From IMG/VR virus record IMGVR_UViG_3300044825_003378, positions 1 to 26,633 of that record: a DNA stretch of 26,633 nucleotides. One strand, 5' to 3'. Positions within the stretch are counted from its first letter, which is position 1. Each line of letters begins with the position of its first letter. The stretch is from a virus. The notes below the pieces were generated by a model. It was not told where the DNA came from, made no database searches, and saw nothing but the letters and a program-made list of their open reading frames with translations. Position numbers and translations under genes: made by a program. This document shows, in pieces, positions 3,203 through 26,633 of the stretch.

Positions 3203-4207
3203 TCAGACGACGGCCTCGGTCTCGAGGATCTGGTCGACCCGGCGGATCGGGATGTCGTACATCTGCAGCTGCTCGAAGCTGCCGAACTGCGTCGCGGCCT
3301 TGACGATCGAGAAGACGCCGCCGCTCATCGCCAGGCCCAGGCGCATGATCAGCGCGTAGACCGTGTCGCCGACGTAGAGCACCTTCTTGCCCGGCCGACG
3401 GATGCGCAGCCGCGCCAGGATGATCTGGTGCAGGATGTTGAGGGCCGAGCTCGCCGTCTGGTTGTTGCTCAGCGCCTTGGCGTGCGCCACGTCGATGTTG
3501 CAGATGCGCACGACGCTCGGCCACGCCTCGACGACGAGCCCGACGTTCCACTTGTGCTTGGTCTGCAGCACGACCTGCTGGTTGCCGTTGGCCAGCGTCT
3601 TGACCTGCTTGCCCAGGTCCTCCTTGACGTAGCCGGCGGTCGTGCCCTCCGGGAAGATCCCGTAGACGTCCGGGCCCCAGTTGACCAGGTAGGCCGAGGT
3701 CTGCGCGTTGGCGGTCGCGCCGCCGCAGCTGATGACGTTCTTCGCCTTGACGCCCGAGGTCGAGTTGAACAGCTGCTGGAAGCCGTAGACGTCGCGGACG
3801 TTCGTGCCGCGGTTGCCGTAGAACATCATCTGCGCCCAGGCCTGCTTGAGGGCCTCTGCGAAGTTGGCGTCTTCCATCGCGCGCAGCTGACCTTCAGCGC
3901 CGCCGATCTCGGCCTGGTCGGCGTCGACCGTCGAGAAGCCGGTCAGCATCGTCGCGGTCTCGCGGAGCTGCGCCTTCTGGCTCTTCGACTCCGGCGTGCC
4001 CTCGCCGTACATCGTCTTGGAGACGGTCGGCAACGCGGTCTGCACGCTGAAGATGTGGGTCGTGCCGTCGTTGCACTGGACCCACGGGATGTCCATGACG
4101 GCCTGGTTCTCCTGGGCCAGCATGGCGATTTCGGGGAGCACCTTGCCGCGGTGGAAGTGCTGGCTCCACTCGACCAGGTTCTTGCGCGTGCTGCTGATCG
4201 CTGCCAT
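3203..4207 (-). CDS. Major capsid protein (BPP-1/podovirus type)
   Basis: A 334-residue protein starting MAAISSTRKNLVEWSQHF. The N-terminal part has PWVQCNDGTTHIFSVQTALP and then a kinked region with GEGTPESKSQKAQLRETATMLTGFSTVD. This N-D-G-T-T-H ... A-L-P pattern is characteristic of major capsid proteins of BPP-1-like podoviruses. A mid-protein helix (EALKQAWAQMMFYGNRGTNV) is followed by GFQQLFNSTSG. The length fits the family, whose capsid protein has a rearranged HK97-type fold. It lies three bases after the scaffold stop and just before the cement genes. A GAGG ribosome-binding site precedes the ATG. No separate protease gene is seen between portal and capsid. Confidence 0.88.
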   Translation of the reverse strand: MAAISSTRKNLVEWSQHFHRGKVLPEIAMLAQENQAVMDIPWVQCNDGTTHIFSVQTALPTVSKTMYGEGTPESKSQKAQLRETATMLTGFSTVDADQAEIGGAEGQLRAMEDANFAEALKQAWAQMMFYGNRGTNVRDVYGFQQLFNSTSGVKAKNVISCGGATANAQTSAYLVNWGPDVYGIFPEGTTAGYVKEDLGKQVKTLANGNQQVVLQTKHKWNVGLVVEAWPSVVRICNIDVAHAKALSNNQTASSALNILHQIILARLRIRRPGKKVLYVGDTVYALIMRLGLAMSGGVFSIVKAATQFGSFEQLQMYDIPIRRVDQILETEAVV

Positions 4208-4210
4208 CGG

Positions 4211-5056
4211 TCATTGCCCTCGCTTCTTGGCGTTCGTCTCGTATTCCGCGGCGGCCGCCTCGATCGGGTCGAGCGACTGCTTCGGACTGGGCTCCGTCTT
4301 CCGCACGGAGCGATCGTTGCTGACCCGCTGCCCGAAGTAGGCGAGCAGGTCGATGAAGTCCGGGTGAGCGGCGAGGGCGCTGTTCCGGAGGAAGGTGGTG
4401 AGTTCGGGCGTGGCTCCCTTGAGCAGCGCCCGATTGGCCAGGCGCATCACGTCGCCCAGGCGGTCGCCGTGGCGCTCCTGCAGCTGCGTGCGCCACTCCG
4501 CGGCCTGCGTGTCGACCTGCTCCTTCCACTGGGCCTCGGTGTCGGCCTTCAGTGCGGGCAGCATCGCCTGCAGGATGTCGTTCGCGACCTCGGGGGCGAC
4601 GCGGTGCTTCTGCAGCACCTGCTTGAATGCGTCGGCAACAGGCTCCCGCAGGGTCGTGCCCTCGGGCGCCTCGAACTGGTAGTCGATCGGCTTGTCGGCG
4701 TCCTCGCCCTCCGCCGGATCCGCGTCCGCGTCGGCCGGCGCGTCGCCTTCGGCCGGGGCCGGCTCGGCGTCGCCCTCGGGCTCGGCGTCGCCGAGCTGGG
4801 GCACGGCCGTCTCGTCGGGCTCGGCGTCGCCGAGCTGCGGCACCGCCGGCGCATCGGCAGCCTTGGGCGCAGCTGGGGCCTTCGGGGCAGCCGGCGCGGC
4901 CGGAGCCGGGGCTGCGGCCTTCTTCGGCTCGGCAGGGGCGGGCGCGGGCGCCGCCGGCTTGACCGGGGCAGCAGGGGCCGGGGCTGCGGCGGCAGCCTTC
5001 GGAGCCGCGGCAGGGGCGGCGGGCTTCGGGGTCGCGGGAGGCGGAACGGCACTCAT
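4211..5056 (-). CDS. Capsid scaffolding protein
   Basis: A 281-residue protein. Residues 1-70 are almost entirely Ala, Pro and Lys. Residues 70-125 are acidic and contain the octapeptide PQLGDAEP twice (73-80 and 86-93). From about residue 125 a helical part begins with IDYQFEAPEGTTL and continues through VLQKHRVAPEVANDILQAML, a Trp-containing helix (QAAEWRTQLQERHGD) and ATPELTTFLRNSALAAHPDFIDLL. This order (flexible acidic N-terminus, YxFxxPEG, charged helices, H-P-x-F-x-x-L-L) is typical of phage scaffold proteins encoded just before the capsid gene. It starts by ATGA overlap with the upstream stop and ends three bases before the capsid start. It would act inside the procapsid and leave before DNA packaging. 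Confidence 0.82.
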   Translation of the reverse strand: MSAVPPPATPKPAAPAAAPKAAAAAPAPAAPVKPAAPAPAPAEPKKAAAPAPAAPAAPKAPAAPKAADAPAVPQLGDAEPDETAVPQLGDAEPEGDAEPAPAEGDAPADADADPAEGEDADKPIDYQFEAPEGTTLREPVADAFKQVLQKHRVAPEVANDILQAMLPALKADTEAQWKEQVDTQAAEWRTQLQERHGDRLGDVMRLANRALLKGATPELTTFLRNSALAAHPDFIDLLAYFGQRVSNDRSVRKTEPSPKQSLDPIEAAAAEYETNAKKRGQ

Positions 5057-5415
5057 CGGAACGGGTCCTCGGTCGGTGCGGGCGTTCCCTGCGCAGCCCG
5101 CTTGCGCTCCTCTTCCCTGGCTTCGTGCGCGACCTGGAGCGCCAGCTCCTGCACGTGCTCGGCTTCCATGGCGACCCATCCCTCGGGGGCGTGCTTGCGC
5201 AGCTGCGCGCGCAGCATGCCGCCCACCATGCGGCGGCCGGCGTCGAAGGCCATCCGTTCGATGCCCTCGGTCGCCCCGGTCTCCTCGATGCCGGCCCACC
5301 GCAGCACGGCGCGCAGCACGCGGCGTCCGCGCGCATCGCCGACGACCCAGTCCAGCGCATCGCGATCCTTCGCGTCGGCTTGCTCCGGGGTCAGCAGCGG
5401 GTTGTCGGCCTGCAC
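5053..5415 (-). CDS. Hypothetical helical protein preceding the scaffold
   Basis: A 120-residue protein if started at the GTG at 5415, reading QADNPLLTPEQADAKDRDAL after the initiator. It is helical and charged (RGRRVLRAVLRWAG, AFDAGRRMVGGMLRAQL, VAHEAREEERKRAAQG), with no membrane segment. It ends in ATGA overlap with the scaffold gene, which suggests co-production with head genes. The frame also stays open upstream to a TTG at 5451, but that would place the palindrome at 5417-5430 inside the gene. I therefore prefer GTG 5415, which sits one base past the palindrome and lacks a Shine-Dalgarno sequence. Function unknown; a head-assembly accessory is possible from position only. Confidence 0.65.
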   Translation of the reverse strand: MQADNPLLTPEQADAKDRDALDWVVGDARGRRVLRAVLRWAGIEETGATEGIERMAFDAGRRMVGGMLRAQLRKHAPEGWVAMEAEHVQELALQVAHEAREEERKRAAQGTPAPTEDPFR

Positions 5416-5416
5416 A

Positions 5417-5430
5417 TGCACTATAGTGCA
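5417..5430 (-). promoter_or_regulatory. Palindrome TGCACTATAGTGCA at the head of the scaffold-capsid unit
   Basis: A perfect 14-base palindrome. Fifteen bases (CTGCACTATAGTGCA, minus sense) are shared exactly with a second site at 10132-10149. It ends one base before the GTG start of the gene at 5053-5415 and lies at the end of one of the few real intergenic gaps in the late region. The centre contains TATAGT, one base off a -10 box. Spacing would make the mRNA nearly leaderless. It could be a repressor or activator operator, a promoter core, or both. Confidence 0.55.
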
Positions 5431-5494
5431 GTGCCTTCGGCTCCAGCGCAAGTGGATGCCTGCCAGCGTGGCCGATTCCTGCCGTTCCGCCGGC

Positions 5495-5557
5495 TCAGTC
5501 GTCCGGATCGGGCGTCCGGGCGACCGCCGCGGCGACCTCGGCCGCTCTCGTTTTCAT
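5495..5557 (-). CDS. Possible 20-residue micro-gene
   Basis: ATG at 5557 overlaps the stop of the upstream zinc-binding protein gene (ATGA), giving MKTRAAEVAAAVARTPDPDD and then TGA. The peptide has an Ala-rich amphipathic helix and an acidic tail. The only support is the overlap junction that real genes here use repeatedly. Without homologues it may be chance. The remaining 64 bases down to the palindrome hold no further reading frame that I can support. Confidence 0.3.
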   Translation of the reverse strand: MKTRAAEVAAAVARTPDPDD

Positions 5558-5772
5558 ATATGCCACGGTGTCGTGGCCGGCTTCGGGACTGCCTCGAAGT
5601 CAGGGCAGAACGAGTCCGGATCGACTTGCAGCGCCGGCCGCGAAACGTGGCAGAACGTGCCCGCGAAGTGCCGCACCTCGCTGCTGTGCTGGAACCCGTC
5701 CGACACCGCGATCGCGCGCTGGCGCGCCCACACGCACGCAGAGCAGCGGGCCTTCGCGTGGTCGAGCGTCAC
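5554..5772 (-). CDS. Small Cys/His-rich, probably zinc-binding protein
   Basis: A 72-residue protein with a GTG start at 5772. It contains CSAC at about residues 10-13, then HFAGTFCH and DPDSFCPDF. This spacing of CxxC followed by two single Cys, one next to His and one before Pro-Asp-Phe, resembles small phage proteins with a C-x2-C ... C ... (F/W)C-x-x-F metal site. Zinc binding is inferred from the residues; partner and substrate are unknown. It lies two bases downstream of the previous stop, in the small-gene group between tail-type and scaffold genes. Confidence 0.6.
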   Translation of the reverse strand: MTLDHAKARCSACVWARQRAIAVSDGFQHSSEVRHFAGTFCHVSRPALQVDPDSFCPDFEAVPKPATTPWHI

Positions 5773-5774
5773 GG

Positions 5775-6068
5775 CTAGCCGCCCGCCGCGGCGACCAGCA
5801 CGCCGCGCACCACGCCACCGGCAACCCCCGACACCCAGGTCATCAGCACGTCGGTGAGCACGCCGGTCTCGCTCGCCGTCAGCGACGATGCCTGCGACTT
5901 CAGGTGCGCCATCTCACGGCTGACGTCGACGTTGGCCAGCGCCAGCGTCTGCAGGTGCGCCAGCTCGACGCCGAGCTGCACCAGGATCTCCTGGCGTGCC
6001 GGGTCCTTGATCCTCGCGCGCAGGCCGTCGACGACGCCCTGGATCCGCGGCAGGTCGCGCGCGCTCAC
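5775..6068 (-). CDS. Small protein with hydrophobic C-terminus, possible holin or membrane-associated protein
   Basis: A 97-residue protein with a GTG start overlapping the lipoprotein stop (GTGA). The first about 70 residues are helical and heptad-like (RIQGVVDGLRARI, EILVQLGVELAHLQTLAL, SREMAHLKSQASSL). The last about 25 (VLMTWVSGVAGGVVRGVLVAAAGG) are Gly/Val/Ala-rich and could insert in a membrane. Its position next to a transmembrane coiled-coil protein and a lipoprotein suggests the lysis group, but one C-terminal segment is unusual for a holin. Function is not established. Confidence 0.6.
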   Translation of the reverse strand: MSARDLPRIQGVVDGLRARIKDPARQEILVQLGVELAHLQTLALANVDVSREMAHLKSQASSLTASETGVLTDVLMTWVSGVAGGVVRGVLVAAAGG

Positions 6069-6328
6069 CGCTGCACCGCCCGCGCTTCACGCACGACGAT
6101 CGCCTCTTCGAACCGCGCCACCGTCGCCTGCCGGCGCGCCTTCGCGGCCGCGTCCAGAGCCGGGTCGGCCTCGACGTAGCGCAGGTACTCCGGCGCCACG
6201 GCGCTCTGGTAGTCGCGCGCGGCCGCGGTGAACGTCGGGTCGGGGCCAGCGACGCACCCGACAAACAGAATGCACAGAATCATCAACACAATGCAAATTG
6301 GGTAGCTGTAGTGGTAGCGGCGGTTCAT
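6065..6328 (-). CDS. Small phage lipoprotein, candidate outer-membrane spanin subunit
   Basis: An 87-residue protein starting MNRRYHYSYPICIV. A basic N-terminus is followed by a hydrophobic core and the lipobox LFVGC with Cys25, which would be lipidated. The mature part contains DPTF, PEYLRYVEADPALDA and a charged helix. The ADPALDA stretch recurs in small phage lipoproteins encoded beside membrane proteins. The start overlaps the stop of an inner-membrane coiled-coil gene (ATGA). An o-spanin (Rz1-like) role is possible, although the protein is not proline-rich as classical Rz1 proteins are. Confidence 0.65.
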   Translation of the reverse strand: MNRRYHYSYPICIVLMILCILFVGCVAGPDPTFTAAARDYQSAVAPEYLRYVEADPALDAAAKARRQATVARFEEAIVVREARAVQR

Positions 6329-6696
6329 CCGGGTCTCCTTTGCGCGAGCAGCTGCTCGACGCGGTGTGGGATCTGTTCGATGGCGTGCGCGTGGTCGGTC
6401 GACAGGTCGCTCAGCCGCCGCAGCTCGAGCACGGCTTCCTGCAGGGCGCGCGTCTGCATCTCGTCGTGCGCGGCGCGCTTCTCCTCGCGCTCCTCGCGCT
6501 TGGCCTCGCGGTCGGCGATCACCTTCTCGCGCGCGTCCTGGCGATCGCGGTCGCTGCGCACCAGCCAGGCGATGAAGCCGGCCAGCGGCAGCACGATCGC
6601 CGCGATCCACCAGGGGCCTGCATCCGCCACTTCCGCGACAGCGGTGGCGACAGCGCCGGCGCTGAAGATTCCAGCCACGCTCGAGGTCGTCATCAT
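6325..6696 (-). CDS. Membrane protein with long coiled coil, candidate inner-membrane spanin or holin-type protein
   Basis: A 123-residue protein with tandem ATG codons at 6696 and 6693. A weakly hydrophobic Ala/Val leader is followed by a clear transmembrane segment at residues 28-47 (GPWWIAAIVLPLAGFIAWLV). A highly charged Arg/Glu helix of about 60 residues follows (REAKREEREEKRAAHDE) and the protein ends QLLAQRRPG. One N-terminal membrane span plus a long coiled coil is the plan of i-spanins, and a lipoprotein gene overlaps its 3' end. A holin or structural membrane protein is also possible. Confidence 0.65.
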   Translation of the reverse strand: MMTTSSVAGIFSAGAVATAVAEVADAGPWWIAAIVLPLAGFIAWLVRSDRDRQDAREKVIADREAKREEREEKRAAHDEMQTRALQEAVLELRRLSDLSTDHAHAIEQIPHRVEQLLAQRRPG

Positions 6697-6704
6697 GGGG
6701 TCGG

Positions 6705-7886
6705 CTATCGCTCCATCACGGTGAGGACGCCGGCCACCGTCGTCGCGGTGGTGGCGGACGCCTGGTAGCACAACAGCGCGCACGTGCCGTTGAAGAGGGC
6801 CACGCCAGGGTCCAGCGGGGGCTGCGTCGGAGCGCCGACGTTGGCGACCAACACCGATTGCCCCCACAGCGGCCGCGCGACCAGCAGCGACACCGACCCC
6901 GTCACCAGCGACGTGCCCAGCGTGATCGACTGGATGCTGCGCACGCCAGTGTCGCCCGCGGCGAGCTGGAACCAGACGATCGTGCCGATCACCGGCGTGG
7001 CCGGGATCTGCGCGCCGACCAGGTTGGCCAGCGTGGCCGTGCGGCCCGCGGTGCCGGCCTGGTTGGTGTAGCTGACGGTCGCGTTGTTGATGACGGCGGC
7101 GTTCGTCGCGGCGGCGGTGAACAGCAGGCCGATCATCAGGCCTTCGCCGTTCGCTGTGCCATCGGCGCAGCGTGCCGGGAACGCTGGCGTCGTGATCGCC
7201 TGCGCCGTCGTCGTGGTCACCGTGATGCCGGTGTTGACCCACAACACGTCCACCAGCATGAACCACTGCGCGACCGTCGCGCTGAGCGACACCGTCGTCA
7301 GGTAGTTGGTGCCGAGCGCGGGCGTCTGGATCGGCACGCAGCCAGCGTCGGCCGCCGTCGTGCCGTCCGTGGTGCGGCCGTTGATGCCGGGGGCGCCGGG
7401 CGCCCAGGCGCCCGGGAAGCCGCCGTCCTTGGCGAAGCAGTACCAGTATCCGATCGTGTCGGCGCCGGTGCCAGCCTTCCACAGCGAGTACGCCCGGCCC
7501 CAGTAGCCGGGGGACTCGCTCGGCAGCTTCTCGCGGCCGGATGCGTCGAACACCTTCCAGCCGTAGCCGTCGAGGTAGTGCAGCGACTCGCCCACCAGCA
7601 GCGTCGCGCGGAACGCGGTGCGCGGCGTGCCGCTGTCGCGCTGCACGGTCACACCGGCCGACGTGAAGCCGACGTTGCGGAACGACAGGTGCTTCACCTG
7701 GCGCTGCGTGGATGCGCCCGGCGCTGCCACGATCGTGGTCGTCGTCGCGGTGGTGATGACGCCATCGCCTGCCACCGGCGTGAACGCCGCCGAGGTCAGG
7801 TCGACGGCGCTCCACGTGTAGTCGATCTGGTTGGTCGTGTCCGTCACGACCTCCCACGACTCGCTGGTGCTGACCAGGAGCAACAT
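6705..7886 (-). CDS. Phage structural (tail/neck-type) beta protein
   Basis: A 393-residue protein starting MLLLVSTSESWEVVTDTT. Residues 40-115 hold the pattern TTIVAAPGASTQRQVKHLSFRN ... LLVGESLHYLDGYGWKVFDASGR. This domain recurs in phage virion proteins annotated as structural or tail-associated. The rest is rich in Thr, Ala and Gly beta strands (ITVTTTTAQAITTPAF, VGAQIPATPVIGTIVWFQLA) as expected for a fibre or decoration protein. It has few charged residues and no signal peptide or membrane span. It lies three bases from the upstream gene in the portal unit. A tail fibre, neck fibre or adhesin is likely, but the exact part cannot be named. Confidence 0.65.
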   Translation of the reverse strand: MLLLVSTSESWEVVTDTTNQIDYTWSAVDLTSAAFTPVAGDGVITTATTTTIVAAPGASTQRQVKHLSFRNVGFTSAGVTVQRDSGTPRTAFRATLLVGESLHYLDGYGWKVFDASGREKLPSESPGYWGRAYSLWKAGTGADTIGYWYCFAKDGGFPGAWAPGAPGINGRTTDGTTAADAGCVPIQTPALGTNYLTTVSLSATVAQWFMLVDVLWVNTGITVTTTTAQAITTPAFPARCADGTANGEGLMIGLLFTAAATNAAVINNATVSYTNQAGTAGRTATLANLVGAQIPATPVIGTIVWFQLAAGDTGVRSIQSITLGTSLVTGSVSLLVARPLWGQSVLVANVGAPTQPPLDPGVALFNGTCALLCYQASATTATTVAGVLTVMER

Positions 7887-7889
7887 CGG

Positions 7890-8186
7890 CTAGACCCTCA
7901 GCGACACGCGGGTGCGCACCGCGAACTCTTCCAGGCCGCCACCGCTGCCGCCGCCCCCGTTGGCGTCGAGCCAGTCGGCCAGGTCCTGCACCGTCACGAT
8001 GCCGCTACCGGACAGCCAGGCGGCCCAGCTCGAGCTGTCGAGCGTCACGTCGCTGCCGAGCACGCCGCGCAGCCCCGCCAGGCGCCGCACCCACTCCTCG
8101 GTCGCCAGGCGCCCATCGGGCCCCTCGAGCACGGGCGCGCCGGCGCGGCCGGGGCCGTGGCCAGGGTGCTGCGTTGGCTGCGTCAC
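7890..8186 (-). CDS. Small hypothetical protein after the portal
   Basis: A 98-residue protein with a GTG start overlapping the portal stop (GTGA). The N-terminus is Pro/Gly/His-rich (TQPTQHPGHGPGRAGAP). A helical middle (ATEEWVRRLAGLRGVLG, TVQDLADWLDANG) is followed by a Gly/Ser linker and a hydrophobic end (EFAVRTRVSLRV). The alternative ATG-initiated frames do not fit the overlap. A connector, adaptor or minor virion role is plausible from its position directly after the portal, but I do not recognise the family. Confidence 0.6.
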   Translation of the reverse strand: MTQPTQHPGHGPGRAGAPVLEGPDGRLATEEWVRRLAGLRGVLGSDVTLDSSSWAAWLSGSGIVTVQDLADWLDANGGGGSGGGLEEFAVRTRVSLRV

Positions 8187-9832
8187 GCGCTCAACCTCTG
8201 GGCGTCCGCCGCGCTGCGCGCGATGTCGACGCCCTGCTGCGCCGCCGCCGCCTGTTGCTGCGCCTGCATCTGCTGCGCCCGGGCCGCGCGCAGCTTCTGC
8301 ACCGCTTCGACCGGCACCAGCACGCTCGTCGGCGCTCCCTCGATCTCGGCGATCTTGCGCAGTGCGGTGTCGACGTCGAGGTTGTCGAGGATGTGCGCCA
8401 GCTGCGGCAGCTTGGCCATCTCGCCGGCGATCGCGAACGTGCGCACGATCGCGTCGACCTCGGCCTGGCGCTGCTTGCGCGCCAGCGGCGACGTGAACTC
8501 GATGTCGATGACCTGGCCGGCGAGCGACTCCGGCGGGGTCGGCAACAGCCCGGCCTGCGTGCCGATCTCCCACAGCCACTCGACGTAGGGGTTGAGCAGC
8601 TCCTCGGACAGCCGGTAGAGGCTCGGCAGCCACTCGGTCATGTCCTGGCTCGTGCGCAGGTCGGCCTCGCGCGCGGTCATCTGGTGCGTCACGCGCCGCA
8701 GCGACGCCACCAGCGTGGCGCCCAGCGTGTCGCGGATGTCCTGGCGGGTGCGCTCGATCGCGTCGGCCATCTCGGCCAGGCGCAGCGTGACCTGCCGCAG
8801 GTTCGTCACCGGCGTCTGGCCGAAGACGCTGGTCTTGCCGCCGGGCAGCATGCGCACCTCGTGCGCGCTCAGCCCCGCCGGGATCTGCACCGCCGGATCC
8901 GCCATCTCCGCCATCGCCTGGCCGTAGCGGTAGATCATCTTCCGCAGCCGGATCAGGTGCGGCAGAGCGTCCTGGCCGCGGCCGTAGCCGTAGGCCGAGC
9001 CCGGCAGCTTGCCCATGCGCCAGACCAGCCCGGGGAAGCGCGTGAAGCCGCGCACCGCCAGGACCTGGTCGCAGCCCGACGTCAGCTCGAAGTAGACGCT
9101 GCGCCAGGGCAGGTCGGGGTTGTCGCCCTCGGGGTTGCGGCCGTCGCGGTCCGGCTCGATCGCGTGCACGCACGGGATCGGTAGGTCGAAGTCCTGGCGC
9201 TCGTAGGCCGACCGCGCCGTCGTGCTCAGCGCGTCCGGGCCGAACTCGTCGGCCAGCTGGCCCACGGTCATCGTGAAGTCGCGGTAGATCGTGTCGACGC
9301 GGCCGCGCGCGTCGTCGGCGATGCAGTACTCGCCGACCGTCATCGGGTCGATTCGGTGGCCGTCCTCGTCGTCCTCGAGCAGCAGCGCCGCCGCCGTGCC
9401 GAACGCGATCCACTCCTTCTGCAGCTCCGGCAGCACGTGGTTCGCGTTGCTCTGGTTGTGCATGCCGAGCATGCGCTGCTGCGACTCGTCCAGGTAGAGG
9501 CGCAGGTCGTCGTCGTCGCTCCACACGTTGCGGATCGACAACCCGAACCAGGGCGACGTCGGGGGCATCGAACCGCTGGCGACGCCGGCGGCGGCCGTCT
9601 CGAGGGCCAGGTGGCCGACCGCGTCGCAGATGTGCGTGTTGTGCTCGCCGGCGCGCGTGATGCCGTGCGGGTCCTGCAGGTAGGGCAGGCGGTTCGGGAT
9701 CAGCTCCTCGGCGATCTGGCGGCTGAAGTCGAGCCACGGCTGGCGCCGCTCGATCAGGTGCGTGCGGCGCTGCATGCAGTGCTTGCGCAGCTCGCTGGTG
9801 TCCGACCCCTTCAGCAGCGACAGGACGGCCAC
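8183..9832 (-). CDS. Portal protein (head-to-tail connecting protein family)
   Basis: A 549-residue protein starting MAVLSLLKGSDTSELRKHC. An N-terminal helix with RRQPWLDFSRQIAEELIPNR is followed by HICDAVGHLALETAAAGVASGSMPPTSPWFGLSI, the conserved region of T7-gp8-like connectors (L..A..A.G..S.L.PP..PWF.L). Later come GTAAALLLEDDED, a Tyr/Asp strand region, GYGRGQDALPHLIRLRKM (stem-helix entry) and a Gln/Ala-rich C-terminal coiled coil. Length fits this family. Twelve copies would form the ring at one capsid vertex through which DNA enters and leaves. It starts one base after the upstream stop region and overlaps the next gene. Its type supports a podovirus. Confidence 0.9.
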   Translation of the reverse strand: MAVLSLLKGSDTSELRKHCMQRRTHLIERRQPWLDFSRQIAEELIPNRLPYLQDPHGITRAGEHNTHICDAVGHLALETAAAGVASGSMPPTSPWFGLSIRNVWSDDDDLRLYLDESQQRMLGMHNQSNANHVLPELQKEWIAFGTAAALLLEDDEDGHRIDPMTVGEYCIADDARGRVDTIYRDFTMTVGQLADEFGPDALSTTARSAYERQDFDLPIPCVHAIEPDRDGRNPEGDNPDLPWRSVYFELTSGCDQVLAVRGFTRFPGLVWRMGKLPGSAYGYGRGQDALPHLIRLRKMIYRYGQAMAEMADPAVQIPAGLSAHEVRMLPGGKTSVFGQTPVTNLRQVTLRLAEMADAIERTRQDIRDTLGATLVASLRRVTHQMTAREADLRTSQDMTEWLPSLYRLSEELLNPYVEWLWEIGTQAGLLPTPPESLAGQVIDIEFTSPLARKQRQAEVDAIVRTFAIAGEMAKLPQLAHILDNLDVDTALRKIAEIEGAPTSVLVPVEAVQKLRAARAQQMQAQQQAAAAQQGVDIARSAADAQRLSA

Positions 9833-9833
9833 G

Positions 9834-10130
9834 TCAGGCCCCCAGCAGGCCAGGGCGGCCCAGAAGCAGCCGGTCGGCGTCGATCGCCGACTGGCTGGCC
9901 TTCGGCTTCATCTGGTCGGCCAGGAGCACGTTCAGGTCGGGCGTCTTCTGCCGCGCCCGGTTGGTCTCTTCCTCGGCGAGGGTCGCGTCGCGGATCGCGG
10001 CGTCCTGCGCGTCCTGCTGCGCCTGGTCCTGAAGGCGCAGGCCCTTCTTCGCCACCTTCTTCTGGTTCTCGCCGGAGTAGACGCCGTATGCCAGGGAGGC
10101 AACAGCAGCAGCTGCAAGGACCGCGGGCAT
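9834..10130 (-). CDS. Small virion-associated protein upstream of portal
   Basis: A 98-residue protein starting MPAVLAAAAVASLAYGVYSG, with a short hydrophobic N-terminus. A Gln/Asp/Ala coiled coil (LRLQDQAQQDAQDAA), an Arg/Thr stretch with KTPDLNVLLADQM and a C-terminus LLLGRPGLLGA follow. Small proteins with this plan (hydrophobic start, coiled coil, (K/R)TP, final LLG) sit next to the portal in several podoviruses and are probably minor or ejection proteins. The ATG is one base after an 18-base palindrome, and a CAGGA ribosome-binding sequence is part of that palindrome. The portal starts one base after this gene ends. Confidence 0.65.
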   Translation of the reverse strand: MPAVLAAAAVASLAYGVYSGENQKKVAKKGLRLQDQAQQDAQDAAIRDATLAEEETNRARQKTPDLNVLLADQMKPKASQSAIDADRLLLGRPGLLGA

Positions 10131-10131
10131 T

Positions 10132-10149
10132 CCTGCACTATAGTGCAGG
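10132..10149 (-). promoter_or_regulatory. 18-base palindrome directly before the portal unit
   Basis: The sequence CCTGCACTATAGTGCAGG is a perfect 18-base palindrome. Its central part is the same as the site at 5417-5430. It fills most of the 32-base gap between the GNAT stop codon and the ATG at 10130, covering the ribosome-binding position. Read as a promoter it offers TAGACG-17 bases-TATAGT, with TAG being the GNAT stop, and an expected start close to the ATG. A protein bound here would block both transcription start and ribosome access. Confidence 0.6.
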
Positions 10150-10162
10150 TTCGGTTGAGCGT

Positions 10163-10582
10163 CTACACCGCCTCGAACGCGACCGCCACCGGTCGCCACA
10201 GCAGCCGGCGCGCCAGGCGCTCGAGGCGACTGCCAGGCACGGCCTGCACGTGCAGAGGCACGCCGCGTTCCTCGCGCGCCCACGTCGCCAGCGTGTCGAG
10301 CAGCTGACGGCCCCAGCGCCCGCGGTGCGCCGGCAGCACGAACACCGACAGCGTCGTGCAGGTGACGCCCGAGCTGAACAGCGCCGGCACGGCCGCGGCC
10401 ACGCCGTAGCCGACCAGCTCGCCGTCGACCTCGACGATGCGCACCGCAAGCGCGCCGGAGTCCTCGAGCGCGAACAGGGCCGGCCATCGCACGTCGCAGC
10501 CGCTGCACGTCTCGGCCGCGGCTGCGGCGATCAGCGCGGCGCCGCGCTTCTGCAGCTCGGACAGTGGGGCGGTGAGGATCAC
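10163..10582 (-). CDS. GNAT-family N-acetyltransferase
   Basis: A 139-residue protein with a GTG start overlapping the upstream stop (GTGA), reading ILTAPLSELQKRGAALIAAA after the initiator. Strands IVEVDGELVGYGVAAAV (beta-bulge region) and TLSVFVLPAHRGRWGRQLLDTLATWA follow. The latter is GNAT motif A, with the acetyl-CoA pyrophosphate loop (R-G-R-W-G-R). The end ERLARRLLWRPVAVAFEAV fits the last strands. Length is normal for the family. Substrate is unknown. It lies between terminase and portal genes, where phages often carry a GNAT gene; it may modify a virion or host protein. The stop codon TAG overlaps the candidate -35 box of the next unit. Confidence 0.75.
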   Translation of the reverse strand: MILTAPLSELQKRGAALIAAAAAETCSGCDVRWPALFALEDSGALAVRIVEVDGELVGYGVAAAVPALFSSGVTCTTLSVFVLPAHRGRWGRQLLDTLATWAREERGVPLHVQAVPGSRLERLARRLLWRPVAVAFEAV

Positions 10583-11102: not shown

Positions 11103-12554
11103 TCACCTCCCCCCGCCGAAACCGAACTCGTCGTGCGACTCGCCACGCCCACGCATTGCCCTGGCGATCGCGCGCAGCTCGTCCTCGCCCTGCGGCGCCA
11201 CCGCGGCCACCGGGTAGGCGAACGTCAGCGCGGCGCCGTCGCCCCAGTCAGGCGACCGACCCAGCCGCGCCTTCACCTCGTCCTTGGGCTCCAGGACCTG
11301 CTGGCCCTTGAGGTTCCAGCCCATCTCCGGCTCGAGGAGGTCCTGCTCGAGCTCGGGGCATTTGCCGATCGCGCCGCCGGTCTTCACCCACTCGGCCAGG
11401 CGCACGTACATCTCGACCCGCTTGTTGAGGAAGCGCGTGCTGTCGTCCGCGGCCCCGCCGAAGTAGACCGGCACGAACGACTGGCCCATGGCCCGCAGCG
11501 TGTCGCCGACGCCGATGCCAGGGCCGCCGAGGTCGAGAAACACCGTCGTGGCGCCGAGCTCGCGCACCATCGCCACGATCTCGCCGGCGATCACGATGGT
11601 CGAGGCTCCGCGCAGCACCTTCGGCGGGTAGAGCATGCGCCCGCGCCGCGGGTAGATCACGCAGGCGTCGGTCACCATGCCGACGTCGACGCCGAGCACC
11701 AGCGGTTCGCGGCGGTTCTCCTCCGCCGGTCGCGCCGCGGCCGCCTCAATGTCGGACAGCGACAGCAGCTTGCCGACGGCGGCGTCGGGGAACTCGGCGA
11801 AGACGTTGATCTTGACCCACGGGTTGTCGCGGCCGTAGGCCTGGATCTGCTGCCGCGCCCACTCCTTGGTCACGCGCGGCGTGCGCAGCGGGTCGTCGGG
11901 GTCGCTGGTGATGCGCACGCAGTGCCACATCTGCCGTTGCTTCACCACTGCGGTGTAGAGCGCGCCGTTCGTCGACGTCGTGTTCCCGCCGATCCACACC
12001 CGGATCTGGTCGCGGCCCTTCTTCGTCGCCAGCACCGCGTCGACCGTGGCCAGCAGCGCCGCCGGCACGCCGCCGGCCTCGTCGATCACGAAGAAGCAGT
12101 TCTCGCTGCGGAAGCCGGCCAGCGCCTGCGCCTGCGTGTGCGGGTCCGCCGACTGGTTCCACGTGCGCGCCGACGCGAACCACGTCGCCGGCGCCGTCTT
12201 TCGCACGACGCGCTCGGGCGACCAGTGGAACAGCTCCTGCAGCAGCGGCGACTTGCTCTGCCACTTCGCGAGCTCGGCCCACAGGCCGTCGCGCAGCTGC
12301 GCGCCGTTGATCGACGTCGCGGCCCCCTTCACGTGCGGCTGCGTCGTCAGCGACCACCACATCGCCCAGGTGAAGAACGTGGTCTTCGCGCAGCCCTTGC
12401 TGCCGGCGATCGCGACGCGGTCGTGCTTCGGCAGCTCCTCGAGCTCCTTGGCCTGCCACGGGTCGGGCTCGGCGTTGAACGCCTGGCGCACGAACGCCAG
12501 CGGTTCGCGGCGCCAGCGCTGCAGCACTCGTTCGGCGTCACTCAGGTTTTCCAT
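11103..12554 (-). CDS. Terminase large subunit (packaging ATPase/nuclease)
   Basis: A 483-residue DNA-packaging motor protein. The N-terminal half is the ATPase: the adenine-contact region near DPWQAKELEEL (31-41), a Walker A loop at 51-59 reading GSKGCAKTT (variant, with Ala before the Lys) and Walker B plus catalytic Glu at 154-160 (FFVIDEA). The C-terminal half is the RNase-H-like nuclease: VLGVDVG with Asp290, TVFLDLGG with Asp341, and RSPDWGDGAAL near residue 443 as the third acidic site. Length is normal. The protein binds the portal, cuts the concatemer and pumps DNA. Its start overlaps the small-subunit gene by 17 bases. Confidence 0.93.
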   Translation of the reverse strand: MENLSDAERVLQRWRREPLAFVRQAFNAEPDPWQAKELEELPKHDRVAIAGSKGCAKTTFFTWAMWWSLTTQPHVKGAATSINGAQLRDGLWAELAKWQSKSPLLQELFHWSPERVVRKTAPATWFASARTWNQSADPHTQAQALAGFRSENCFFVIDEAGGVPAALLATVDAVLATKKGRDQIRVWIGGNTTSTNGALYTAVVKQRQMWHCVRITSDPDDPLRTPRVTKEWARQQIQAYGRDNPWVKINVFAEFPDAAVGKLLSLSDIEAAAARPAEENRREPLVLGVDVGMVTDACVIYPRRGRMLYPPKVLRGASTIVIAGEIVAMVRELGATTVFLDLGGPGIGVGDTLRAMGQSFVPVYFGGAADDSTRFLNKRVEMYVRLAEWVKTGGAIGKCPELEQDLLEPEMGWNLKGQQVLEPKDEVKARLGRSPDWGDGAALTFAYPVAAVAPQGEDELRAIARAMRGRGESHDEFGFGGGR

Positions 12555-14711: not shown

Positions 14712-15061
14712 CACTGCACCAGCCACAGCGCCAGCACATAGGACGCCTTGCACCAGACGTGCAGTACCTGGTCGAAGCTGAAGCCAATGGCTCCACGACA
14801 CTTTGCGTAGTCGATCGCGAAGTGCATCGCGAACTCGACGACTCCGAAGAGCAGCCCAGCCGCGGGGCCGCACCGCCACGCAAACGCACCGGCAACGGCT
14901 CCGGCGTGGATAGCAGCGTGCGCCCCCATTGCCCACGGCCACGGGACACCAGGAAGCGGCTGTGCAGGGTTCTTCGCCTTTGCGAGGAAGTCGCCCTGCA
15001 GTGGGTAGTCGCACACCGCGTGGGCAACCAACAGCGACAGAAACAGAATCGCGTGCTCCAT
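14711..15061 (-). CDS. DUF3307-like integral membrane protein
   Basis: A 116-residue protein starting at the ATG at 15061, which overlaps the methylase stop (TGATG); a GTG one codon upstream is the alternative. It reads MEHAILFLSLLVAHAVCDYPLQGDFLAKAKNP. The V-A-H-x-x-x-D-Y-P-L-Q-x-D pattern is the signature of DUF3307 proteins. Three to four hydrophobic segments follow, including AAIHAGAVAGAFAW, AGLLFGVVEFAMHFAIDY and SYVLALWLVQ. The conserved His and Asp residues inside the membrane region are kept. Function of the family is not known. It is unusual in a methylase-resolvase neighbourhood. Confidence 0.75.
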   Translation of the reverse strand: MEHAILFLSLLVAHAVCDYPLQGDFLAKAKNPAQPLPGVPWPWAMGAHAAIHAGAVAGAFAWRCGPAAGLLFGVVEFAMHFAIDYAKCRGAIGFSFDQVLHVWCKASYVLALWLVQ

Positions 15062-15996: not shown

Positions 15997-16037
15997 GGCG
16001 GCGCGACGCCTCCGCCGTTGCCAATGACGATCACCAT
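15993..16037 (-). CDS. Possible 14-residue coupling ORF between secreted protein and methylase
   Basis: ATG at 16037 overlaps the end of the secreted-protein gene, encodes MVIVIGNGGGVAPP and stops with TGA inside the ATGA that starts the methylase. It bridges the 34-base gap exactly. It may serve translational coupling rather than make a useful peptide. The evidence is only the two overlap junctions, so chance is possible. Confidence 0.3.
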   Translation of the reverse strand: MVIVIGNGGGVAPP

Positions 16038-17890
16038 GGCGCCCCCGGCGCGATCCAGCGCGTGTGCTTCGGCTCGTTCGCGCTCGGGCGCAGCTGTGCC
16101 AGGATGGCCTTCGCCTTCGCGTTGCCGGGCTCGTGGCGCAGCACCACGCACGGCGCCAGCGGCATTCCGTAGAACGCGAACCCCTCACTGAACGTGCCGC
16201 CGGCGCCACCAGGCTCCGCCAGCAGCCCGCTCTCGCAGCACACCCAGCGCCCGCCGACCTGGCGCCAGGCGTCGTCGAGCACTCGCCGCGCTGCGCGAAG
16301 GGCCACCGCGCGCGCGGCCGGCAGTCCGAACTGCTCGCCGGCCAGGTCGAGGCCGTAGGCGCCGAGGGCCTGCTGCCATGGGATCCACCGCCGGCCGGCG
16401 CCGAGCCGAGGGTCGTCGACGCGCACGTCCCAGATGCTCCACTGGGCCACGTCTAGTTTTGGCACCAGGACTGAGGCGACGCGCTGCGCGTAGTGCGCGC
16501 GCACCGCGGCCGCCGCGCCGCGGTCCTCGAGCTCGCGCCACAGGTGCACCGCCAGGATGCCCTCCCAGCCAACCGCACGCGCCGCGAACGGCTCGCTGGT
16601 CGACCAGCCCGGCTGCGTGGTCCACTGCAGCGGGTAGAGCACCGCCAGCTGGCGCAGCAGCTGCTGGCACGCCGGCGAGCCGGTGAGGCGCGCGCCGGCG
16701 GCGAGCGTCGCGAACATCGCGTGTTCGACGTCGGGCCCCCAAAATCCGTTCGCCGCGGCGACGTCGAGGTTCGCCGGCTTGCCCAGCCGATCGGGCGACA
16801 CGCCCGTGTGCCAGTGCGGCCGCCCATCCCAGCACACCAGCTGCGGGTGCCGCGCACCGTCGAGCATTGACCCGTCGGCCTCGCGGTGCTGGATCGGGCG
16901 CGCAGCGAGCTTCAGCGCGCTCAGGTAGGCCACCAGCTCAGCGCCGACCCCGCCGGGCAGCAGCGCCTCGCCGCGCGTGAACACGCTGTCCTCCTGCTCG
17001 CCTGCAGAGGGGCTCGCGCTCGCCGGCCCGCACACTGCCGGCTCCCACGTGTGCAGGCGCCGCACAGCCTCAGGCAGCAGCCCAGCGGCCCACGCGCGCG
17101 CGTTGAACGACGGCAGGTAGACCGGGTTGCCGTTCGCCAGCAGCTTCCCGATGCCCACTCCCACGACGCCCATCTGCGCATCAGCAACCACCGAACCGAA
17201 GTCCGCCACGCTCTGCAGCTTCGCCGGCCACACGAACGTCACCGGGACGGCCCGTGCCTGGCCATCGGCTAGCACCGTCCCTGGTGCCAGCAGCGGACCC
17301 GAACCGCCCGGCACCGCGACGATCGCGGACCCAAAACCCACGGTGAAGCCGTTGGGCACGACCGCGGCCATCGCTGGTACGGCAGGGTTGCTCGCCGCGA
17401 CCAGGACCTCGCCGCGCGCCCAGCCAGGCACGTCGGGATACCACACCAGCCAGAGGTCGACGCACAGCATCGGCTCAGCCGGCGTCGGCCGAGCGCGCAT
17501 ATGCACCAGCCAGCCAGCACCGTCGGCGGCCAGCGACACGAGTTGCAGCGGCGTGCCGGAGACGGTCGCCCAGCCGCCGAAGAACGCCGTCGGCGACGCC
17601 GGCAGGCCGCCCAGCGACCACGCCGCCGGCTGCGCGGCGGCCAGGTCGACGGTCAGCTTGCCGCCGGGCGGCAGCGACACCCGCAAGTCGACGACGCGAG
17701 TGTCGAGGCCCACCGCGCGCCCGACGACGAACAGCGTGTCGCCGACGCGGCCCACCTGGCGCGGGGGCGCCTGGTCGACCGTGACCCGCTTCCAGCCGAC
17801 GAACGGCGTCGGCGCAAGGTTCTCGATCCGCACGACCTGCGCGCGCAGCGCGGCGGCGAACACGAACAGCAACAGGAACACCCTAGCCAT
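16031..17890 (-). CDS. Large secreted protein of unknown function (phage cargo)
   Basis: A 619-residue protein with an AGGAGG ribosome-binding site six bases before the ATG at 17890. MARVFLLLFVFAAALRAQ is a clean signal peptide, probably cut before or near Gln18. Residues 18-260 are beta-rich (VRIENLAPTPFVGWKRVTVD, LRVSLPPGGKLTVDLAAA, VHMRARPTPAEPMLCVDLWL). Residues 330-600 are mostly helical with repeated Trp and aromatic motifs (HWHTGVSPDRLG, GFWGPDVEHAMFATLAAGARL, YPLQWTTQPGW, AVGWEGILAVHLWRELEDRG), a layout like an alpha/alpha-barrel glycan-active enzyme, but I see no diagnostic catalytic motif. It sits between a small helical protein and the methylase. It would leave the cytoplasm, so it may alter the host surface or act in superinfection exclusion. 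Host-derived cargo is likely. Confidence 0.75.
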   Translation of the reverse strand: MARVFLLLFVFAAALRAQVVRIENLAPTPFVGWKRVTVDQAPPRQVGRVGDTLFVVGRAVGLDTRVVDLRVSLPPGGKLTVDLAAAQPAAWSLGGLPASPTAFFGGWATVSGTPLQLVSLAADGAGWLVHMRARPTPAEPMLCVDLWLVWYPDVPGWARGEVLVAASNPAVPAMAAVVPNGFTVGFGSAIVAVPGGSGPLLAPGTVLADGQARAVPVTFVWPAKLQSVADFGSVVADAQMGVVGVGIGKLLANGNPVYLPSFNARAWAAGLLPEAVRRLHTWEPAVCGPASASPSAGEQEDSVFTRGEALLPGGVGAELVAYLSALKLAARPIQHREADGSMLDGARHPQLVCWDGRPHWHTGVSPDRLGKPANLDVAAANGFWGPDVEHAMFATLAAGARLTGSPACQQLLRQLAVLYPLQWTTQPGWSTSEPFAARAVGWEGILAVHLWRELEDRGAAAAVRAHYAQRVASVLVPKLDVAQWSIWDVRVDDPRLGAGRRWIPWQQALGAYGLDLAGEQFGLPAARAVALRAARRVLDDAWRQVGGRWVCCESGLLAEPGGAGGTFSEGFAFYGMPLAPCVVLRHEPGNAKAKAILAQLRPSANEPKHTRWIAPGAPW

Positions 17891-26457: not shown

Positions 26458-26458
<1 letters not shown>
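26348..26458 (-). CDS. Possible 36-residue small protein
   Basis: ATG 26458 overlaps the stop of the Pro/Thr-repeat gene (TGATG) and its own TGA overlaps the next GTG (GTGA). It encodes a basic start (MERRRQAASILAAAARI) and an Ala/Pro-rich end. Tight coupling on both sides is the only support. It may be a short accessory peptide or a coupling frame. Confidence 0.45.

Positions 26459-26633
<175 letters not shown>

Follow-up and report, generated by a model that had tools for sequence, protein, structure and literature searches.

A TGCA-N6-TGCA palindrome over a putative leaderless -10 box precedes the portal and scaffold-capsid units in a group of phages

BoxR and BzdR are XRE-family repressors of benzoyl-CoA pathways in Betaproteobacteria (PMC6449761, PMC6678401). 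The main BoxR/BzdR motif was published as ATGCACTATAGTGCAT, and BoxR sites are usually multiple (PMC6449761). BzdR operators carry TGCA(N6)TGCA, and in the PN promoter an operator region spans -32 to +31 (PMC6678401). Pseudo-symmetric bidirectional promoters have been described (PMC12825309, PMC10268837). The 14-bp palindrome described here, which lies ahead of two structural gene units of a phage, is the exact core of ATGCACTATAGTGCAT; a full-text search for the 14-mer led to PMC6449761.

The palindrome was found in an IMG/VR record of 26,633 bases and 71% GC, which was analyzed over its whole length (hereafter, the window). Genes were called by a simple script, and all of them were on the minus strand; since genes run off its ends, the window looks like a fragment. 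Family searches identified an integrase, terminase subunits, a portal, a Bbp19-like protein, a protease/scaffold-like protein, a major head protein, and a tail fibre, and no tRNA suggesting an attachment site was found in the window. A 616-aa protein (16031-17881), for which no PHROG or Pfam match was obtained, has a 613-aa homologue at the same position (5555-7396) of a related record, G001. The end of the window is occupied by a Pro/Thr-rich low-complexity reading frame (26458-26631), and a similarly repetitive frame stands at the end of G001.

A first-pass annotation of this DNA had reported a 15-base repeat, CTGCACTATAGTGCA in minus sense, at 5417-5431 (site 1) and 10134-10148 (site 2), the second copy being embedded in an 18-base perfect palindrome. 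A scan of the window confirmed both the coordinates and the larger palindrome (10132-10149), and revealed no further match with up to three mismatches. Both copies, as reported, fall between late genes and on the coding strand. Each had been said to end one base before a start codon, which is correct for site 1. For site 2 it holds for the 18-mer, whereas the 15-mer stops three bases short of the ATG. The perfect 14-mer TGCACTATAGTGCA occurs twice (Table 1), once ahead of a small pre-portal gene and once ahead of the phrog_528 gene that precedes the scaffold/protease-like and capsid genes. The unit downstream of site 2 begins with the 98-aa protein and the portal, and that downstream of site 1 comprises the phrog_528, scaffold/protease, capsid, and tail genes. 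Dinucleotide shuffles (n = 100) gave a mean of 0.28 matches, with none reaching the 4 observed on both strands, and the expectation for the motif TGCAnTATAnTGCA was 0.0 per shuffled window (200 shuffles). The hexamer TATAnT was observed four times against 0.35 expected (both strands), and all four occurrences were within the two palindromes.

Table 1. Positions of the palindromes, promoter-like elements, and adjoining genes in the window
Feature	Position	Strand	Remarks
Site 1, 14-bp perfect palindrome TGCACTATAGTGCA	5417..5430	-	Putative operator over -10 box; equivalent to G001 14878-14891 and L061 7238-7251
Site 2, 18-bp perfect palindrome CCTGCACTATAGTGCAGG, core TGCACTATAGTGCA at 10134-10147	10132..10149	-	Putative operator over -10 box; equivalent to G001 11335-11348 and L061 3843-3856
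TATAGT, proposed -10 box of site 1	5420..5425	-	GTG four bases downstream; TATAnT invariant among sites
TATAGT, proposed -10 box of site 2	10137..10142	-	ATG six bases downstream; TATAnT invariant among sites
TTGCG	5447..5451	-	21-22 bp upstream of palindrome at 5/6 sites; absent at window site 2
TAGACG, weak -35-like hexamer, 17-bp spacing	10160..10165	-	Window site 2 only; overlaps TAG stop codon of upstream gene
98-aa protein gene, first of portal unit	9834..10130	-	Start ATG 10130-10128; N-termini align with relatives
Portal / head-tail adaptor (phrog_332)	8183..9832	-	Family search
phrog_528 (Bbp19-like) gene, first of scaffold-capsid unit	5053..5415	-	Start GTG 5415-5413
Scaffold/protease-like gene (phrog_458)	4211..5056	-	Start picked by reading the sequence
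Major head protein (phrog_212)	3203..4207	-	Family search

Capsid and terminase searches identified the relative L058 (record G001; 37,359 bases), with 72% identity in the capsid and 69% in the terminase, and the relative L061/L062, with 67% identity in the terminase and 57% in the capsid. Each of them carried exactly two TGCAnTATAnTGCA sites in its available sequence, at the two equivalent gene starts. The first-pass proposal that one element is shared by the portal and scaffold-capsid units was thereby extended to syntenic positions of two other phage species, and scattered copies inside genes were found neither in the window nor in the 37-kb relative. Mean pairwise identity among the six sites was 0.91 in the core versus 0.30-0.35 in the flanks, and the proteins encoded by the first genes were 35-50% identical across relatives, yet began at the same position. 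Twelve positions, comprising both TGCA arms and TATA, were invariant, and two positions alone were free, hexamer base 5 and the position mirroring it. The two sites form a genuine, conserved pair of probable operator-promoters. The capsid-profile search yielded no additional species, the nucleotide search yielded no related phage record, and the scanned loci around terminase or portal relatives of greater distance, other than BPP-1 and epsilon15, had no TGCAnTATAnTGCA at these genes. As for the upstream TTGCG, it appeared to be non-coding at site 1 in the window, G001, and L061. At site 2, the upstream frame, acetyltransferase-like in the window, stops there before the palindrome and, on our reading of the sequence, may continue through it in G001 and L061. 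TTGCG falls on a Val-Ala codon pair in the latter two, so that part of its conservation could be protein-driven.

We then examined the occurrence of these sequences in databases, with the window's own record excluded from the IMG/VR scans. The composite TTGCG-N15-17-TGCASTATANTGCA, which is fitted by window site 1 (window site 2 being the palindrome without TTGCG), matched IMG/VR-wide only in the records of these relatives and at these sites, and a scrambled control gave five scattered single matches. The exact 14-mer was present in 42 IMG/VR stretches of many kinds, unrelated or loosely related; it is consequently not diagnostic alone, and the paired syntenic placement is. Within 1.2 Mb of related loci, the core was restricted to this phage group except for one occurrence in L059 (record G002; capsid 33% identical). 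This core, TGCAGTATAGTGCA, stands before the leading gene of a run that continues into the terminase genes, and an XRE gene is encoded approximately 300 bases upstream of it (L111:3940-4486 of that record). In bacteria of the order of Caldimonas mangrovi, no prophage with the composite was found in 399 genomes, and a scan of 150 genomes for the exact 14-mer gave no match. Among named genomes, the closest terminase was 46% identical and came from a Lysobacter MAG, and no host could be named on this basis.

Next, we focused on the promoter-like features of the sites. The centre of every site has the TATAnT form of a sigma-70 -10 hexamer, and the distance from TATAnT to the start codon was 4-7 bases for all six genes. 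No Shine-Dalgarno match of at least four bases preceded any of these six genes, compared with 33 of the 63 predicted genes of the window and G001, a count that is indicative only because starts were taken from a simple script. The usual distance from a -10 hexamer to the transcript start is 6-7 bases, which places the predicted start at the A of the ATG at site 2 and within the GTG at site 1. Together, the 4-7-base spacing and the missing Shine-Dalgarno matches suggest that these are probably leaderless sigma-70-type promoters. This anatomy supports the first-pass suggestion of a TATAGT -10 box with near-leaderless starts, and it recurs at the syntenic positions of both other species. No canonical -35 box was evident: TTGCG is 20-21 bp from the hexamer instead of the usual 16-18, and TAGACG at window site 2, at 17 bp, is weak.

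Based on these data, we infer with moderate confidence that each site is a compact operator-promoter, in which a leaderless -10 promoter and an operator for a dimeric XRE-type protein coincide and both late units are repressed. TATAnT would serve a host sigma-70-type promoter as its -10 box, and the transcript would begin at the start codon or no more than a few bases from it. The resulting leaderless or nearly leaderless mRNAs would encode the 98-aa protein and the portal from one site, and the Bbp19-like, scaffold, capsid, and tail proteins from the other. TGCA-N6-TGCA, lying symmetrically over the -10 box at about -17 to -4, would be the 14-bp operator of an XRE-type helix-turn-helix dimer. 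The bound dimer would block RNA polymerase and keep both structural units silent, and its departure would turn both on together. The spacing of the arms by one helical turn would fit a helix-turn-helix dimer, and the position over the -10 box would fit repression. Beyond the placement, conservation, and rarity of the sites, this reading is favoured by the identity of the 14-mer to the BoxR/BzdR core, by such sites at boxR loci, one of them overlapping a -10-like hexamer, and by the 14-mer ahead of an XRE gene in an unrelated phage group (below). Set against this reading are the non-canonical -35 region, the lack of a detected XRE protein in the window, the single sites, and the distant relatives without the motif. 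If it is true, one 14-bp element acting as -10 box and operator at once would co-switch two separate structural blocks with leaderless translation.

Several other explanations were considered. The sites might be late promoters that are leaderless but have no dimeric regulator, in which case the symmetry would reflect a bidirectional -10 element and conserved contacts around it; we regard this as unlikely, while giving it more weight than the explanations that follow. On either strand, TATAGT can be read as a -10 box, as in bacterial promoters with a bidirectional symmetric -10 element. Unlike those promoters, however, the phage sites have TGCA arms that are conserved and lack a gene in divergent orientation, and since the gene upstream shares their strand, a divergent transcript would be of no evident use. 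A -10 box also leaves the invariant upstream-side TGCA and the identity to an XRE operator consensus unexplained. Still less likely, in our estimation, is an activator of host or phage origin that binds the palindrome and turns on both late promoters, with TTGCG as an extra contact replacing the -35 box. Such an activator would account for the weak or absent -35 boxes and the conserved TTGCG two helical turns upstream, but a dimer centred on the -10 box normally hinders RNA polymerase, and TTGCG is missing at window site 2. It is very improbable that the palindrome acts as a 5'-end RNA hairpin controlling translation or mRNA stability, albeit able to form a 5-7-bp stem closed by a UAUA loop. 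Two of the four distinct sequences have a disrupted inner base pair, which indicates that an RNA stem is not the conserved feature; moreover, covariation was not above that of shuffles, no Rfam match was found in the window, and a transcript from this -10 box would lack the element. A promoter of a T7-like single-subunit polymerase, which CACTATAG resembles, was rejected on the variation of positions 5 and 10, flanking TATA, among seven sites. Finally, a chance repeat without function, to which the mere two copies per genome and the 42 other stretches with the 14-mer could point, is scarcely credible, since three phage species whose flanks have diverged retain both copies at equivalent gene starts; the shuffles also speak against it.

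To return to the operator-promoter reading, we searched for the single regulator by which, in the first-pass proposal, both units could be controlled together; the motif is of the XRE-dimer (BoxR/BzdR) class. A regulator inside the window was rejected for want of any HTH_3 match among its proteins, and no BoxR-like protein was found in the window, G001, L059/L111, or L061/L062. The best match to the BoxR HTH profile in those phages was an XRE protein of G001 (E = 7e-5), encoded by a lone gene on the opposite strand between the early and late genes. This candidate was rejected, as its own promoter lacks TGCA-N6-TGCA and its recognition helix is unlike that of BoxR. At this gene (L109:7412-7700), TATAAT lies seven bases before the ATG, so that the gene may be leaderless too, and a second hexamer, TATACT, is oppositely directed. 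In reference-phage searches, the BoxR HTH domain gave weak matches only (35-39% identity), and the G001 XRE protein gave none. The regulator may be encoded by phage DNA that has yet to be sequenced or by the host.

The motif was further surveyed in bacteria of the order of Caldimonas mangrovi. Several boxR loci carried TGCA-N6-TGCA with a like centre, often accompanied at 30-31 bp by a second site or near-site. The helix VSERxxAxLE was common to the BoxR proteins of these loci. In Caldimonas mangrovi itself, one boxR-locus site overlaps a -10-like hexamer (TTGACG-17-TATTGT). Across 70 genomes of the order, TGCAnTATAnTGCA was found at 14 places versus one for the reversed control; one of the 14 was a boxR locus, one had a transporter-like gene on one side and an XRE gene on the other (L182), and the others were in varied contexts. 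The L182 site (TGCACTATACTGCA; 1501-1514 of this bacterial sequence) has a second near-site nearby, and the helix of the adjoining XRE protein, VSRRMLVNIE, resembles the BoxR helix. As far as these sequences go, the motif class seems to be used by more than one XRE protein.

Other phages also contained the motif. In an unrelated group of GC-rich phages (L004, L005, L007, L009, L021, L024, L025, L030, L034, and L044), the identical 14-mer lies over TATAGT, with the ATG of a 73-aa XRE gene five bases after the palindrome, giving a near-leaderless start like those of the window. In contrast to the window sites, this promoter drives an XRE gene instead of late genes, and its TTGCG, 16 bp upstream, is within TTGCG-N5-CGCAA, a second palindrome that the site adjoins together with a divergent operon. 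The recognition helix of this XRE protein is unlike that of BoxR, so that a shared operator is no proof of a shared protein class. Tandem TGCAnTATAnTGCA pairs with a 16-bp period were observed in two related contigs (L177:86-115 and L178:3171-3200), approximately 450-500 bases upstream of a gene called terminase-like by sequence reading rather than by family search. Two AT-rich contigs of approximately 175 kb (L012 and L022) had repeated intergenic CACTATAGTG palindromes that look like an operator array.

Among described phages, the epsilon15/BPP-1-like podoviruses resemble this group in a related portal (approximately 30% identity to the epsilon15 and BPP-1 portals) and in common PHROG families for the portal, the phrog_528 protein, and the major head protein; they differ in that the scanned loci of the more distant terminase/portal relatives, BPP-1 and epsilon15 themselves aside, are without TGCAnTATAnTGCA at these genes. 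Compared with BoxR/BzdR operators, the phage sites precede structural genes in phages with no detected BoxR-like protein. They are single per promoter (window, G001, and L061) and are not spaced by whole helical turns, with only TTGCG at 21-22 bp. Like BoxR/BzdR operators, the phage sites have two TGCA arms 6 bp apart and an A/T-rich centre. A host BoxR/BzdR-type repressor released by benzoyl-CoA, or a host XRE cousin, could conceivably silence the portal and capsid genes, in which case aromatic catabolism would gate virion production; we consider this improbable. The motif could be used to trace the regulator and further phages with similar wiring. As it coincides exactly with a benzoate-repressor motif, a link from phage late genes to a metabolic signal of the host can be put to a direct test.
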